Positions 31,410 to 37,526 of a DNA stretch of 41,167 nucleotides are shown here, piece by piece; position 1 is the stretch's first letter; each line of letters begins with the position of its first letter. Below the pieces are notes generated by a model that was not told where the DNA came from, did not search any database, and was given only the letters and a program-made list of their open reading frames with translations. Origin of the DNA: Mesorhizobium sp. (lineage in GTDB: Bacteria > Pseudomonadota > Alphaproteobacteria > Rhizobiales > Rhizobiaceae). The translations under genes and the position numbers were made by a program. The stretch lies in assembly GCA_004020545.1 (NCBI GenBank), contig SAQE01000059.1, positions 1 through 41,167 on the forward strand. The letters run 5' to 3'.

Positions 31410-33251
31410 ATGTCCAGTTTCGAAACGATCGTGCCTGCGCTTGCAGAGGCGCTGCAAAACCGCGGCTATGTCGAGCTGACCGCGGTGCAGAAAGCGGTGC
31501 TGGCGCCCGGGCTAGGCTCGGCCGACGCGCTGGTTTCGGCCCAGACCGGCTCCGGCAAGACGGTTGCCTTCGGCCTTGCCCTGGCGCCGAGCCTGCTCGG
31601 CGGCACGCAACGCTTCGCCGATGCCGGCGCGCCGCTGGGTTTGGTGGTAGCTCCGACGCGGGAGCTGGCGCTGCAGGTGCGGCGCGAGCTGGAATGGCTC
31701 TACGAACTGACCGGCGCGACAGTTGCGTCCTGCGTCGGCGGCATGGATATGCGCGGCGAACGGCGCGCGCTTGAGCGCGGCGCCCACATCGTTGTCGGCA
31801 CGCCCGGCCGGCTGCGCGACCATATCACCCGCGGAGCGCTCGCCATGTCGGCGCTGAAGGCCGTGGTGCTGGACGAGGCCGACGAGATGCTCGACCTCGG
31901 TTTTCGCGAGGACCTCGAATTCATCCTCGATGCCGCGCCCGCCGAGCGCCGCACGCTGATGTTTTCCGCCACCGTGCCGCGCTCGATCGCCACGCTGGCG
32001 AAAAGCTACCAGCGCGACGCCGTGCGCATCTCGGCCGGCGGCGAGGAGAGGCAGCATGTCGACATCGAGTACCGGGCGCTCGCCGTCGCGCCGGCCGATC
32101 GTGAGAACGCCATCATCAACGTGCTGCGCTATTACGAAGCCACCAATGCGATGGTGTTCTGCAACACCCGCGCCGCGGTCAATCACCTCACCGCGCGCTT
32201 CAACAACCGCAATTTCTCCGTCGTGGCGCTCTCCGGCGAGCTCAGCCAGAACGAACGCAGCCACGCGCTGCAGGCGATGCGCGACGGCCGCGCCAGGGTC
32301 TGCATCGCCACCGACGTGGCGGCGCGCGGCATCGACCTGCCCAACCTCGACCTGGTCATCCATGCCGACCTGCCGACCAATCCAGAGACGCTGCTGCATC
32401 GCAGCGGGCGCACCGGCCGCGCCGGGCGAAAAGGCGTCAGCGCGCTGATCGTGCCGGGTAACGCCCGCCGGCGCACCGAGCGCCTGCTTGCCAATGCCGG
32501 CCTGACCGCGACCTGGGCGAGCCCGCCCTCGGCCGACGAGGTGCTGAGGCGCGACGACGAACGCATCCTGGCCGATCCGGCCTTCAGCGAGCCGGTGAAG
32601 GATGAGGAGCGTGACTTCGCCACCGCGCTTCTCGAGCGGCATGGCGCCGAGCTGGTGGCCGCCGCTTTCGTGCGGCTCTGCCGCGGCAGCCGCTCGGCGC
32701 CCGAGGACCTGCTCGACGTCGCGCCGTTCGCGCCGTCAAAGGAGAAGGCCGCGCGCAGGGGCGAAGCGCCCGGCCGCCGCGACGAGTTCGGCGAGAGCGT
32801 CTGGTTCTCGCTGTCGGTGGGACGCCGGCAGAACGCCGAACCGCGCTGGCTGATCCCGATGCTGTGCCGCACCGGCAACATCTCCAAGCGCGAGATCGGC
32901 GCCATCAAGATGCAGCCGGAGGAAACCTTCGTGCAGATCGCGGCCGACTGGGCCGACCGTTTCCTCGCAGCGATCGGCCCCGACCGCAAATTGCAGGGCA
33001 GCATCGCCGTGAAGCGGCTGGACGGCACGCCGGACCTGTCGCGGGCCGGCTATCAGCCGCCGAAACCGGAGAAGAAGCCGCATCGCGGCAAGCGCGCTTT
33101 CGATCAGAACGCGCCCAAATTCCAGAAGCGCGGACCGGGCGAGCATCAGCCCGCCGGCGCGCCGGACGCAAAACCCTGGATGAAAAAGCCCGGCAAGGCG
33201 CAGTTCGATGGGCCGGCAAAGCACAAGAAGGTGAAGAAGCGGCCAGCGTAG
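31410..33251 (+). CDS. DEAD-box RNA helicase with DbpA RNA-binding domain
   Basis: 613 residues. Helicase motifs: I AQTGSGKT (44-51), Ia PTREL, II DEAD (155-158), III SAT (186-188), V VAARGID, VI HRSGRTGRAGR. A DbpA-type RNA-recognition domain follows at about 480-545 (ESVWFSLSVGRRQNAEPRWL, MLCRTGNISKREIGAIKMQP). The last 60 residues are basic and Pro-rich. In E. coli, DbpA acts on 23S rRNA helix 92 during 50S assembly, so a role in ribosome maturation or mRNA turnover is likely. The start is ATG 31410; a longer open frame upstream is made of repeat sequence. Confidence 0.93.
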   Translation: MSSFETIVPALAEALQNRGYVELTAVQKAVLAPGLGSADALVSAQTGSGKTVAFGLALAPSLLGGTQRFADAGAPLGLVVAPTRELALQVRRELEWLYELTGATVASCVGGMDMRGERRALERGAHIVVGTPGRLRDHITRGALAMSALKAVVLDEADEMLDLGFREDLEFILDAAPAERRTLMFSATVPRSIATLAKSYQRDAVRISAGGEERQHVDIEYRALAVAPADRENAIINVLRYYEATNAMVFCNTRAAVNHLTARFNNRNFSVVALSGELSQNERSHALQAMRDGRARVCIATDVAARGIDLPNLDLVIHADLPTNPETLLHRSGRTGRAGRKGVSALIVPGNARRRTERLLANAGLTATWASPPSADEVLRRDDERILADPAFSEPVKDEERDFATALLERHGAELVAAAFVRLCRGSRSAPEDLLDVAPFAPSKEKAARRGEAPGRRDEFGESVWFSLSVGRRQNAEPRWLIPMLCRTGNISKREIGAIKMQPEETFVQIAADWADRFLAAIGPDRKLQGSIAVKRLDGTPDLSRAGYQPPKPEKKPHRGKRAFDQNAPKFQKRGPGEHQPAGAPDAKPWMKKPGKAQFDGPAKHKKVKKRPA

Positions 33252-33336
33252 GTTCGCGATCAAGTTGGTAGCTGGAACACCGGCACCTCCTTCGGCAGCA
33301 AATCGCAACCTTCGAGGTTGGCCGAAGCGTCGGAAC

Positions 33337-33432
33337 TTCGTCATCCACGGGCGGAGCGGGAGCGAAGCGGACGCGTAGACCCGAGGTCTGCGCTGCCTCG
33401 CTCCGCTCCTTGCTCCGCCATAGGATGACGAA
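33337..33432. repeat. Palindromic repeat, short member of the TTCGTCATCC family
   Basis: The ends TTCGTCATCC (33337-33346) and GGATGACGAA (33423-33432) are exact inverted repeats. Inside, GGCGGAGCGGGAGCGAAGCG pairs with CGCTCCGCTCCTTGCTCCGCC with few mismatches. The same ends occur at 37315-37495. Confidence 0.85.
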
Positions 33433-33527
33433 AGCGTGGTGGCTTCCGGTCGCGCTTCATCGCATGCCTCTTGCGGTTCGCCGCGACTTTGAACAGTCTG
33501 GGCGGGCGCGGCAATGGGGACAGGGCA

Positions 33528-34232
33528 ATGCGCGGCGAAGTTCTTCACTATGACCAGGAGCAGGGCTTCGGTTTCATCACCGGCGCCGACGGCAAGCGCT
33601 ACACATTCGCGCGCGAGGACCTGCGCCGCGAGATGGCGCTGGCGAGGGGCGACGCGGTCGAATTTCAGCCGAACGGCGATCGTGCCGGCAATATCTTTTC
33701 GGTTCGCACCCGCATGGCCGGTCCGGCGGACAGCGCCGCCCCGGCCAGTCCCGTCCGTTCGTTGCCGGGCAGCACGCCTGCGACGCCGACGCATTTCGGC
33801 CGCAACGCGGAAAACGGGACCGCGGTATCCACTGGACTGTGGAGCTATTTCTGGCGCGGCCTGACAACGAACTACGTCAACTTTTCCGGCCGTGCCCGGC
33901 GCAAGGAATTCTGGGGCTTTTGCCTGTTCTGGACGATGGGCCTCGTTGTCGCCATTGGCGTCGGCCTGACCGTGGACCTGTCGCGCGGCGAGGGCGGCGC
34001 CGACGAGCCGATCGTCATGCTCGGCCTTGTCGGCCTCTTCTTCCTGTTGACGTTCCTGCCTTGGATCTCGCTCATCGTGCGCCGCCTGCACGATCTCGGC
34101 CTGACCGGCTGGCTCGTGATCCTCTGCCTCCTGCCCTATGTCGGCGGGCTCGCCACCCTGGTCTTCGCGCTGATCCCGACCCAGGCCGGCGACAACAAGT
34201 GGGGACCGGTGCCGGCCGGCGTCAGGCTCTAG
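33528..34232 (+). CDS. Cold-shock-like domain fused to DUF805 membrane domain (copy 1)
   Basis: 234 residues. The first 60 (MRGEVLHYDQEQGFGFITGA, then DGKRYTFAREDLRREMALAR) look like a cold-shock/OB domain, with GFGFI at the place of RNP1. A linker rich in Pro, Ala and Ser runs to about 100. From 104 on is a DUF805 membrane domain: YVNFSGRARRKEFWGFCLFW, three to four hydrophobic helices, and the typical VRRLHDLGLTGWLVIL and GDNKWGPVP. Its function is unknown; the fusion suggests a nucleic-acid-binding head on the membrane. Start ATG 33528 is weakly supported by GGGGACAGGG. Confidence 0.8.
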   Translation: MRGEVLHYDQEQGFGFITGADGKRYTFAREDLRREMALARGDAVEFQPNGDRAGNIFSVRTRMAGPADSAAPASPVRSLPGSTPATPTHFGRNAENGTAVSTGLWSYFWRGLTTNYVNFSGRARRKEFWGFCLFWTMGLVVAIGVGLTVDLSRGEGGADEPIVMLGLVGLFFLLTFLPWISLIVRRLHDLGLTGWLVILCLLPYVGGLATLVFALIPTQAGDNKWGPVPAGVRL

Positions 34233-34305
34233 CGTAAAACGTGCACATTGCAATCTCGTGCAACTTTAGATAGTTTACTGCCGTGCTACGTAAGAGGGGG
34301 AAATG

Positions 34306-34965
34306 ATGCGCGGTGCAGTGTTTCACTACGACGCCGACCACGACTATGGCTATATCAGCGGCGTTGACGGCAAGCGCTACATCTTTAGCCGTGCCGACCT
34401 GACCGAGGAAATGAATATTGCCAGAGGCATGCCCGTCGAATTCACACCGGACGACGGGACGGCGCACGACGTCGCCGCCGCGAAACCCACCGCACCGTCC
34501 TTGGACGGCAGTCTTCAGCAGCGCGGCCGCATCGCCGAAAACCACTCCGCCAGGTCGATGGGGCTTTGGGCCTACTTCTTACGCGCGCTCATCGACGACT
34601 ATCGCAATTTCAGCGGCCGCGCCCGGCGCAAGGAGTTTTGGGCGTTCTATCTCTGGTTCTCCGTCGTGTTCGTCGCGCTGTTCGGTTTCGGCATTCTGCT
34701 CAACCTGGCGATAAGCGGTTTCGATGACGGTCCAACGACTTCGATCGGGCACATTCCATTCCTGCTTTTCGTGCTGATAGCAATCCTGCCGTCGATCGCA
34801 GTCGTCGTGCGGCGTCTGCACGACATCGGTCTGACCGGCTGGCTTGTCTTGCTTTGCTACACTCCGGCTTTGGGCGCTGTTGCCTTTCTCGTCTTCGGGC
34901 TTCTTCCCTCTCAATTCGGGAAGAACCGGTGGGGGCCGATGCCGGCTGGCGCCGGCCCGGCCTAA
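34306..34965 (+). CDS. Cold-shock-like domain fused to DUF805 membrane domain (copy 2)
   Basis: 219 residues and a clear paralogue of the preceding gene, 73 bp downstream: MRGAVFHYDADHDYGYISGV and DGKRYIFSRADLTEEM at the N-terminus, YRNFSGRARRKEFWAFYLWF, VRRLHDIGLTGWLVLLC and GKNRWGPMP in the DUF805 part. The RNP1-like motif has changed to YGYIS. Two ATGs follow each other (34303, 34306); 34306 is chosen because it gives 5 nt to GAGGGGG and matches the MRG start of copy 1. A short inverted repeat TTGCA-TGCAA lies 40 bp upstream. Confidence 0.8.
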   Translation: MRGAVFHYDADHDYGYISGVDGKRYIFSRADLTEEMNIARGMPVEFTPDDGTAHDVAAAKPTAPSLDGSLQQRGRIAENHSARSMGLWAYFLRALIDDYRNFSGRARRKEFWAFYLWFSVVFVALFGFGILLNLAISGFDDGPTTSIGHIPFLLFVLIAILPSIAVVVRRLHDIGLTGWLVLLCYTPALGAVAFLVFGLLPSQFGKNRWGPMPAGAGPA

Positions 34966-35005
34966 GGGCAAAGAAAACTGCTCTCCGAGACGTTGTGTCC
35001 GGAGG

Positions 35006-36109
35006 TCAGCCAAGGAACTTGGCGATGATGGCGTCGCCCATCTGCACGGTGCCGACCTCGGTCATGCCTTCGGACATGATGTCCTTGGTGCGCAGGCCGT
35101 CGTCGAGCACGGCGGCGATTGCCGCTTCGAGCTTGTCGGCTTCCGCCACCATGCCGAAGGAATAGCGCAGGCACATGGCGAAGGAGGCGATCATCGCGAT
35201 CGGGTTGGCGATGCCCTTGCCGGCGATGTCGGGCGCCGAGCCGTGCACCGGCTCGTAGAGCGCCTTGCGCTTCTTGGTCTTGGCATCCGGCGCGCCGAGC
35301 GAGGCCGAAGGCAGCATGCCGATCGAGCCGGTGAGCATGGCGGCGATGTCGGAGAGCATGTCGCCGAACAAATTGTCGGTGACGATGACATCGAACTGTT
35401 TTGGCCAGCGCACCAGCTGCATGCCGCCGGCATCGGCCAGCATGTGGTCGAGCTTCACGTCGCTATATTTGGCCTGATGGGTCTGGGTGACGACCTCGTT
35501 CCACAGCACGCCCGACTTCATGACGTTGCGCTTTTCCATCGAGGTGACGTGGTTCTTGCGCGTGCGCGCCAGCTCGAAGGCGACGCCCGAGATGCGCTCG
35601 ATCTCGAACGTGTCGTAGACCTGGGTGTCGATGCCGCGCTTCTGGCCGTTGCCGAGATCGATGATCTGCTTCGGCTCGCCGAAATAGACGCCGCCGGTGA
35701 GCTCACGCACGATCAGGATGTCGAGGCCCTCGACCACTTCCTGCTTGAGCGAGGAGGATGCCGCGAGCGCCGGATAGCAGATCGCCGGACGAAGATTGGC
35801 GAACAGCTCCATGTCCTTGCGCAGGCGCAGCAGGCCGGCCTCGGGACGCACCTCGTAAGGCACCTTATCCCATTTCGGCCCGCCGACGGCGCCGAAGAGC
35901 ACCGCGTCCGCCGCCATCGCCTTTGCCATGTCGGCGTCCGAGATCGCCGCACCATGCGCGTCATAGGCGCAGCCGCCGACCAGCCCCTCGTCGATGGCAA
36001 AGCCGCTGCCGAGCTTCGCGTTCATGGCGGCGATCAGCTTCTTCACCTCGGCCATGGCCTCGGGGCCGATGCCGTCGCCGGCGAGCAGGAAGAGATTTTT
36101 CGAAGCCAT
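35006..36109 (-). CDS. leuB: 3-isopropylmalate dehydrogenase
   Basis: 367 residues, starting [20 protein letters not shown]. Family marks are [20 protein letters not shown], the Arg-rich substrate site [27 protein letters not shown], and the Asp cluster [12 protein letters not shown] for Mg2+, followed by the NAD-binding [18 protein letters not shown]. It oxidises and decarboxylates 3-isopropylmalate in leucine synthesis. About 90 bp upstream of its start stands a large perfect inverted repeat. leuD lies 3 kb away on the same strand, but leuC is not in the window. Confidence 0.97.
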
Positions 36110-37185: not shown

Positions 37186-37526
37186 GGGGAGCCTTGTCGC
37201 ATTGTCGGCCCTCATCTAGCAGGAGAAGCGCGGCTCGATCGTGGGCCAAGCCGAGCGAACTATTGTCACGATGGCCGGCGCAAGCCTCGGAGATTGGCCG
37301 GAACCTACCTCCCCTTCGTCATTCCAGGGCGGAGCAAGGAGCGAAGCGAAGCGCGCAGACCTGGAATCCATGCCGTTACGCCGAAGCGACGCGAGCGGTT
37401 CAGAATTCTGCATCTTTGCACTCTACGACAACCGTCACGGCATGGATCCTCGGGTCTGCGCTCCGCTGCGCGTCGCTCCGCCCGTGGATGACGAAGCCGC
37501 GTGGTCGCGCCGCGCCTCGCGAAACC
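37186..37526. other. Intergenic region filled by a palindromic repeat
   Basis: No gene is supported. Most of the region is the inverted repeat at 37315-37495. The remaining flanks show no clear promoter or hairpin. Confidence 0.6.
37315..37495. repeat. Long member of the TTCGTCATCC palindromic repeat family
   Basis: Ends TTCGTCATTCCAGGGCGGAG and CTCCGCCCGTGGATGACGAA pair across about 180 bp. A second inner stem is formed by GGAATCCATGCCGT and ACGGCATGGATCCT. The short copy at 33337-33432 lacks this inner part. Confidence 0.85.

Follow-up and report, generated by a model that had tools for sequence, protein, structure and literature searches.

Two adjacent genes of Mesorhizobium sp. each encode a cold-shock-like N-terminal head fused to a DUF805 membrane domain, and heads of this kind recur in Pseudomonadota on DUF805, TM2 and other membrane stretches. 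The genes, copy 1 and copy 2, lie in the window, by which we mean the whole 41,167-nucleotide stretch of DNA that was analysed (Table 1). We favor, at roughly even confidence, a reading in which the head is a ligand-binding or adaptor domain derived from the cold-shock domain (CSD), located in the cytoplasm and tethered at the inner membrane by DUF805, and is not a general tether for RNA.

Table 1 Features of the tandem locus and its surroundings, in window positions
Feature	Position	Strand	Basis
DEAD helicase with DbpA domain, upstream neighbor	31410..33251	+	Pfam DEAD, Helicase_C, DbpA
Dispersed palindromic repeat between helicase and copy 1, outside the system	33337..33432	.	Arms 33337-33357 / 33412-33432
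Copy 1 gene: CSD-like head, linker and DUF805, 234 aa	33528..34232	+	ORF, Pfam, structure model
Copy 1 head, residues 1-60, predicted CSD-like OB barrel	33528..33707	+	Five strands in full model; Foldseek
Copy 1 linker, residues 61-103	33708..33836	+	Residues 63-99 pLDDT <50 in model
Copy 1 DUF805 membrane domain	33873..34208	+	Pfam PF05656 residues 116-227; hydropathy
Copy 2 gene: CSD-like head, linker and DUF805, 219 aa	34306..34965	+	ORF, Pfam
Copy 2 head, residues 1-58, predicted OB barrel, YGYI replacing GFGFI	34306..34479	+	AlphaFold2; Foldseek
Copy 2 DUF805 membrane domain	34600..34938	+	Pfam PF05656 residues 99-211; own-genome family search
leuB-like gene, constant convergent neighbor, outside the system	35006..36109	-	Downstream in 20/20 related loci

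Both reading frames are intact and lie on the same strand with 73 bases between them; an ATG at 34303 is an alternative start of copy 2. An earlier note on this DNA had given the tandem arrangement, coordinates and frames correctly, and the motifs that it named (GFGFI in copy 1, YGYIS in copy 2 and DGKRY-x-F in both) were found in the translations. The copies are identical at 29 of 60 residues over the whole head and at 65 of 130 over the DUF805 part. The note's view that they have diverged most in the RNP1-like motif and the linker holds roughly, with 2/8 residues identical in the RNP1 region (residues 10-17) and 9/26 in the linker, but residues 47-60 are equally diverged (2/14). Both RNP1 aromatic differences between the copies are conservative F to Y changes, with both aromatics retained. 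A scan of positions 33100-35100 found no sigma-70-like promoter, and three terminator-like matches vs 2.4 expected by chance.

The head scores below the Pfam cut-off for CSD (PF00313, 27 bits). As whole proteins, copy 1 reached 19.6 bits and copy 2 had no match listed, and the first ~75 residues alone gave 23.4 and 14.1 bits, respectively. Searching PDB chains with the copy-1 head using phmmer placed CspC first (E 3.8e-5). The copy-2 head is the weaker of the two by sequence, yet it was confidently predicted by AlphaFold2 from 18 head sequences as a five-stranded OB barrel (mean pLDDT 92.9), for which Foldseek ranked CspE, CspC and CspA first (E 2.7e-4 to 5.4e-4, TMq 0.84-0.86, with 0.86 for both CspE 3i2z and CspA 1mjc). 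The full-length model of copy 1 (25 sequences, mean pLDDT 69.9, pTM 0.39) has the same five head strands, with pLDDT 74-86 in the strand blocks, and its best Foldseek matches were CspA and Bc-Csp. Thus, for both heads, structure prediction and fold comparison agree on a cold-shock-like OB fold, as the earlier note had supposed, though the Pfam match is sub-cut-off. The head is a member of a divergent CSD-derived group with the signature I-x-G-x-D-G-x-R-Y-x-F. Similar to the classical cold-shock proteins (Csps) CspA, CspC, CspE and CspB (PF00313), both heads are predicted five-stranded OB barrels that can be aligned through RNP1 and RNP2, and they share with them aromatics at positions 8, 14, 16 and 27. 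They differ from classical Csps in their sub-cut-off Pfam score, in having R-Y for K-D, and in being joined to a membrane domain.

That membrane domain is DUF805 (PF05656) in both copies, as had been proposed, with profile positions 1-111 of 111 covered (E 1.2e-26 and 2.4e-27; 93.8 and 96.1 bits vs a cut-off of 25.7). In a control for the own-genome family search, DUF805 also matched in E. coli, Caulobacter and Lactococcus; YhaH and YhaI of E. coli are presumably DUF805 proteins. To our knowledge, no function has been assigned to DUF805 or to bacterial TM2 domains, both of which are common. Both window copies share the full-length membrane domain of DUF805 proteins, but the head is not universal among these proteins. 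Another contig of the same genome (C144:141513-142194; L003, L123, L126) carries an adjacent DUF805 pair of about 120 and 125 aa without a head, on which the head search found no match. In the copy-1 model, helices at residues 104-113, 123-152, 162-190 and 192-215 follow the linker; no match stands out for the DUF805 part among the best 50 Foldseek matches. Hydropathy shows three hydrophobic stretches in the copy-1 membrane part, which carries the motifs RARRKEFW and RRLHDLGLTGW. Hydrophobic stretches are flanked by the positively charged RARRK and RRLHD, and acidic residues mark the first loop; under the positive-inside rule, this charge pattern would place the head on the cytoplasmic side of the inner membrane. 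Copy 1 matched 106 plasmid records, none of which covers 80% of it.

Purifying selection seems to act on both genes. Pooled dN/dS, by a simple counting method, was 0.38 for copy 1 (13 sequences) and 0.32 for copy 2 (5 sequences), and 0.30 and 0.18, respectively, for the heads alone. Alignment A1 omits copy 1 of L012 and L020, in both of which it is frameshifted, and copy 2 of L019. The nearest named relatives, from 20 loci, belong to Mesorhizobium and Aminobacter. At E 1e-30, the full-length profile matched in 42 of 61 genus genomes, and 19/61 had two matches, four of the second matches being partial or interrupted. In the family, a match that extends over both head and membrane domain was found in 21 of 151 genomes (own included). 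The 19/61 genus genomes with no match to the full-length profile, together with the frameshifts, show that the gene, though common, is dispensable. Copy 2 adjoins copy 1 in only six of the 20 loci (L011, L012, L014, L018, L019, L022), and a copy-2-like gene stands alone in two genus genomes (G051, and G071 with an internal stop). This patchiness marks copy 2 as a local duplicate and not an obligatory partner.

The gene upstream of the pair does, as the earlier note stated, encode a helicase with a DbpA domain; it is of the DEAD type. The shared RNA-related role that it read into this proximity is weakly founded and we reject it, since the association is not conserved and it is the downstream gene, which we take to be leuB, that is present in 20/20 loci instead. 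The helicase lies upstream in 11 of 18 judgeable loci (L009 and L027, of the 20, are cut short), is absent from seven (L010, L014, L015, L020, L024, L025, L026), and is 1.6 kb (L021) and 2.1 kb (L023) distant in two of the 11 loci that have it. Here, helicase and copy 1 are 276 bases apart, and within this gap lies an inverted repeat of a dispersed family; at E 1e-5, the intergenic stretch with the repeat matches the genome at 71 places, its own among them. The same repeat also occurs in the window at 37298-37362 and 37448-37496. The leuB-like gene is also common to six further family regions (L117-L122, with L117, judged by length, on the same contig as L025). A cluster common to eight loci has a displayed member that, by eye, is an ABC-type ATPase.

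The head extends well beyond this locus. A profile built from 14 diverse heads (A4) matched at E 1e-3 in 52 of 398 Pseudomonadota genomes and strongly (E <=1e-8) in 22 of 398, own included. Classical Csps score ~1e-4 with this profile, and four genomes lie in between (1.7e-7 to 2.5e-6), of which at least two hold Se72-like CSD proteins. At E 1e-8, 13 of 289 genomes of the class matched, partly the same genomes as in the Pseudomonadota count. On representatives, with Pfam matches over cut-off, the head is joined to DUF805 in family codes f1, f14, f17, f116, f149 and f125, and to TM2 in f1 (another genus), f11, f12, f28, f43 and f45. Other membrane parts are GPDPase_memb-like in L074 (29.5 bits vs a cut-off of 29.6) and weakly DUF4190-like in L075 (13.6 of 35 bits), while the transmembrane parts in the second gene of L040, L145 and L153 have no family match. 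The head was N-terminal in all fused proteins inspected.

The proteins with TM2 (L033, L034, L035, L037, L040, L043, L055, L064 and L073; L034 and L035 assigned by eye, the others by Pfam) have an N-terminal head like that of the window copies, with the signature I-x-G-x-D-G-x-R-Y (L073 has V and A for I and the first G, and L040 has D-D for D-G), but TM2 replaces DUF805. In these heads, position 14 is never aromatic and position 16 is aromatic in L064 alone (L055, with a deletion there, was not judged). A maximum-likelihood tree of 44 heads (L094 and L096 omitted) did not reject a single TM2 clade (p-AU 0.114), and with only 66 columns it is too short for separate fusions to be counted. The presence of the same head on several membrane anchors makes it look like a nameless building block; by sequence comparison, it appears to be a CSD-derived module that recurs on DUF805, TM2 and other membrane stretches in Pseudomonadota.

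Outside Rhizobiaceae, no shared functional partner was found near the heads; the neighbors differ per family and include what we take to be nuo genes, cysS, groESL and eno. In two genera (L105 and L107), a head+TM2 gene lies just upstream of genes that, by their sequences, are presumably nuoG-like and nuoH-like. From position 5941 of L106 onward, a head is followed by DUF805 in another reading frame, and the gene looks broken. Two plasmid-collection records, of 4.0-4.9 Mb, match the L035 head. L042/L077 and L078 contain Se72-like cold-shock heads that pass the CSD cut-off and are fused to about 160-180 more residues. The end of L078 is made up of hydrophobic stretches, SLATT matches L042 below threshold, and these proteins are possibly another membrane-linked CSD family. 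In the own genome, a Ribosomal_S30AE protein of the ribosome-hibernation type has a C-terminal CSD (C140:24646-24807, L005), with both Pfam cut-offs passed, and the head profile gives a weak match (E 0.11) to a PDB chain labelled hibernation promoting factor.

The design of a CSD on a membrane anchor has precedents, which together with the recurrence of this head on several membrane domains speaks against the earlier description of such an arrangement as unusual. In five of the 15 DUF1294 loci inspected (L128, L129, L130, L135, L140), a CSD head lies in the same open frame as DUF1294, and L136 (GFGWI) is a likely sixth case. Among PDB sequences, the head profile matches best to 2kcm, the N-terminal domain of Shewanella SO_1732 (E 1.7e-6), a protein that presumably carries DUF1294. 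Like the window copies, these proteins have an N-terminal CSD and a short multi-helix membrane domain, but their heads are classical-looking, of GFGFI or GYGFV type, and the membrane family differs from DUF805. Neither copy has DUF1294 among its Pfam matches, and a search of the own genome at E up to 1e-6 found none. Searches of open-licence PubMed Central did not turn up the fusion described here, in line with the note's statement that the system is undescribed, and neither was a description of this head group, its partners or its function; the main text of PMC9427106 contains no occurrence of DUF805.

Which residues the head retains bears directly on what it might bind. Classical motifs are K-G-F-G-F-I for RNP1 and V-F-V-H-F for RNP2. 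In the RNP1 region, copy 1 has Q-G-F-G-F-I and copy 2 H-D-Y-G-Y-I, so that the aromatics are retained and the lysine is gone; in the RNP2 region, T-F-A-R-E and I-F-S-R-A, respectively, retain the first F alone. All 29 Mesorhizobium/Aminobacter heads counted have other residues in place of the RNP2 H and F, of the RNP1 lysine and of the W in KWF (one has Y for H). We compared seven positions that we take to hold bases in CspA (W11, F12, F18, F20, F31, H33 and F34). Aromatic residues or His occupy a mean of 5.0 of these in both copy 1 (n=21) and copy 2 (n=8) of Mesorhizobium/Aminobacter, with a minimum of five among the 29 heads, 4.3 in other Rhizobiaceae DUF805 heads (n=17) and 1.9 in wide heads (n=14), "Rhizobiaceae" for family code f1 being taken from its nearest named relatives, Mesorhizobium and Aminobacter. 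Seven further wide heads have one to four, L075 having four. Classical Csps chosen by profile have 7/7 in each of six distinct sequences (16 loci); seven chosen by motif have a mean of 6.9/7, partly by construction, since the motif fixes several of the seven positions.

The RNP1 aromatic positions follow the same gradient. Positions 14 and 16 are F,F in 21/21 copy-1 heads and Y,Y in 8/8 copy-2 heads of Mesorhizobium/Aminobacter; in other Rhizobiaceae they are aromatic in 7/17 and 16/17 heads, and in wide heads in 0/14 and 3/14, respectively. Instead, Y25 is present in 60/60 heads and R24 in 57/60, where classical Csps have D (7/7) and K (6/7), and each of R24 and Y25 is also found in six of the seven further heads. 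The 60 heads include L036, the head fragment of a broken gene, and omit the frameshifted copy 1 of L012 and L020, copy 2 of L019 and L022 (start unsure), L084 (= L025), L094 (same genome as L032), the interrupted L031/L070, L055 (two-residue deletion), the weaker L042/L077, L076 and L078, and L075, which was counted with the six later heads. Since wide heads nearly lack RNP1 aromatics and commonly have R24 and Y25 instead, the common function of the group hardly rests on those aromatics.

The earlier note proposed that the pair could place RNA or DNA at the inner membrane, with different ligands for the two copies, an interpretation that the evidence supports in part. A working CSD that binds single-stranded RNA or DNA would make the fusion such a tether, the copies differing in preference; this we hold to be doubtful, although it is the strongest of the competing explanations. 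The OB/CSD fold, with CspE and CspA as best matches, its presence on a membrane domain and the purifying selection on both copies are all in keeping with it, and at least five of seven face positions are aromatic or His in every Mesorhizobium/Aminobacter head, with F14/F16 or Y14/Y16. Against it stand the replaced RNP2, RNP1 lysine and KWF tryptophan, mean head net charges (-2.3 and -3.9) more negative than in the seven classical Csps (-0.4), the absence of RNP1 aromatics from most related heads and the unconserved helicase link. The loss of these aromatics from most related heads, together with the shared R-Y, is our chief reason for seeing in the head a remodelled binding face and not simply an RNA-binding domain. 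In the Mesorhizobium lineage, the RNP1 aromatics have been kept or regained, and this is the main ground on which its copies may still bind nucleic acid. Retention of five of the seven residues and the aromatic-for-aromatic change in copy 2 speak for a stacking function in Mesorhizobium/Aminobacter. One combined reading, which we consider unlikely, is that of a swappable sensor module whose R-Y face serves one shared cytoplasmic ligand, with the duplicated Mesorhizobium heads having regained or kept aromatics and stacking RNA or nucleotides with different preferences.

Two further explanations do without a soluble ligand of this kind or place the proteins in defense. The head could bind its own membrane domain or a membrane protein partner, and so serve the assembly or gating of a small DUF805/TM2 protein that resembles a channel or scaffold. 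Its N-terminal place in the fused proteins inspected and its attachment to several short multi-helix membrane domains that also occur headless, as in the C144 pair, would fit, but the long linker of low pLDDT and the low pTM give no confident packing of head on membrane domain, and different membrane domains would need to present the same surface; we regard this as rather improbable. An anti-phage effector akin to the CSD proteins of retrons is suggested by the best NCBIfam match of the head, the retron Se72 effector (NF038236; 31.9 bits for the copy-1 head), and by CSD_V, the only PADLOC match of the copies (E 8e-8 and 2.3e-4), both of which are CSD-like as the window heads are. The NF038236 scores are far under the cut-off of 82 (28.4 and 16.5 bits for whole copies 1 and 2), no retron lies at the locus, and no reverse transcriptase was found on the window contig (C143), the two RVT_1 matches of the genome (E up to 1e-3) being on C77 and C3. 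The copy-1 head had no match at E 1 in 50,697 phage records, and its place beside leuB is constant. We therefore disfavor a role in defense, which seems very improbable.

Under the adaptor reading that we prefer, to which recurrence with several membrane domains and the loss of residues point indirectly, each gene would yield a small inner-membrane protein with its N-terminal head on a flexible linker in the cytoplasm. DUF805 would serve as the membrane anchor, with RARRK before helix 1 and RRLHD between helices 2 and 3 both cytoplasmic. The head would bind a ligand or partner through a cold-shock face remodelled around the near-invariant R24-Y25-x-F27 patch, and would either pass this binding on to the membrane domain or simply localize the bound partner there. 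Single-stranded RNA or DNA in general is probably not what the heads of the group bind in common. On the Mesorhizobium/Aminobacter face, where five aromatic or His residues are kept, weak or altered nucleobase stacking may persist.

A shared, presumably cytoplasmic head with a definite predicted fold and a near-invariant patch provides a handle on several membrane families of unassigned function. Once the ligand of the head is found, the role of several DUF805/TM2-type families would become testable at once. If that ligand were RNA, these proteins would tether RNA directly at the inner membrane, of which there are few cases in bacteria.
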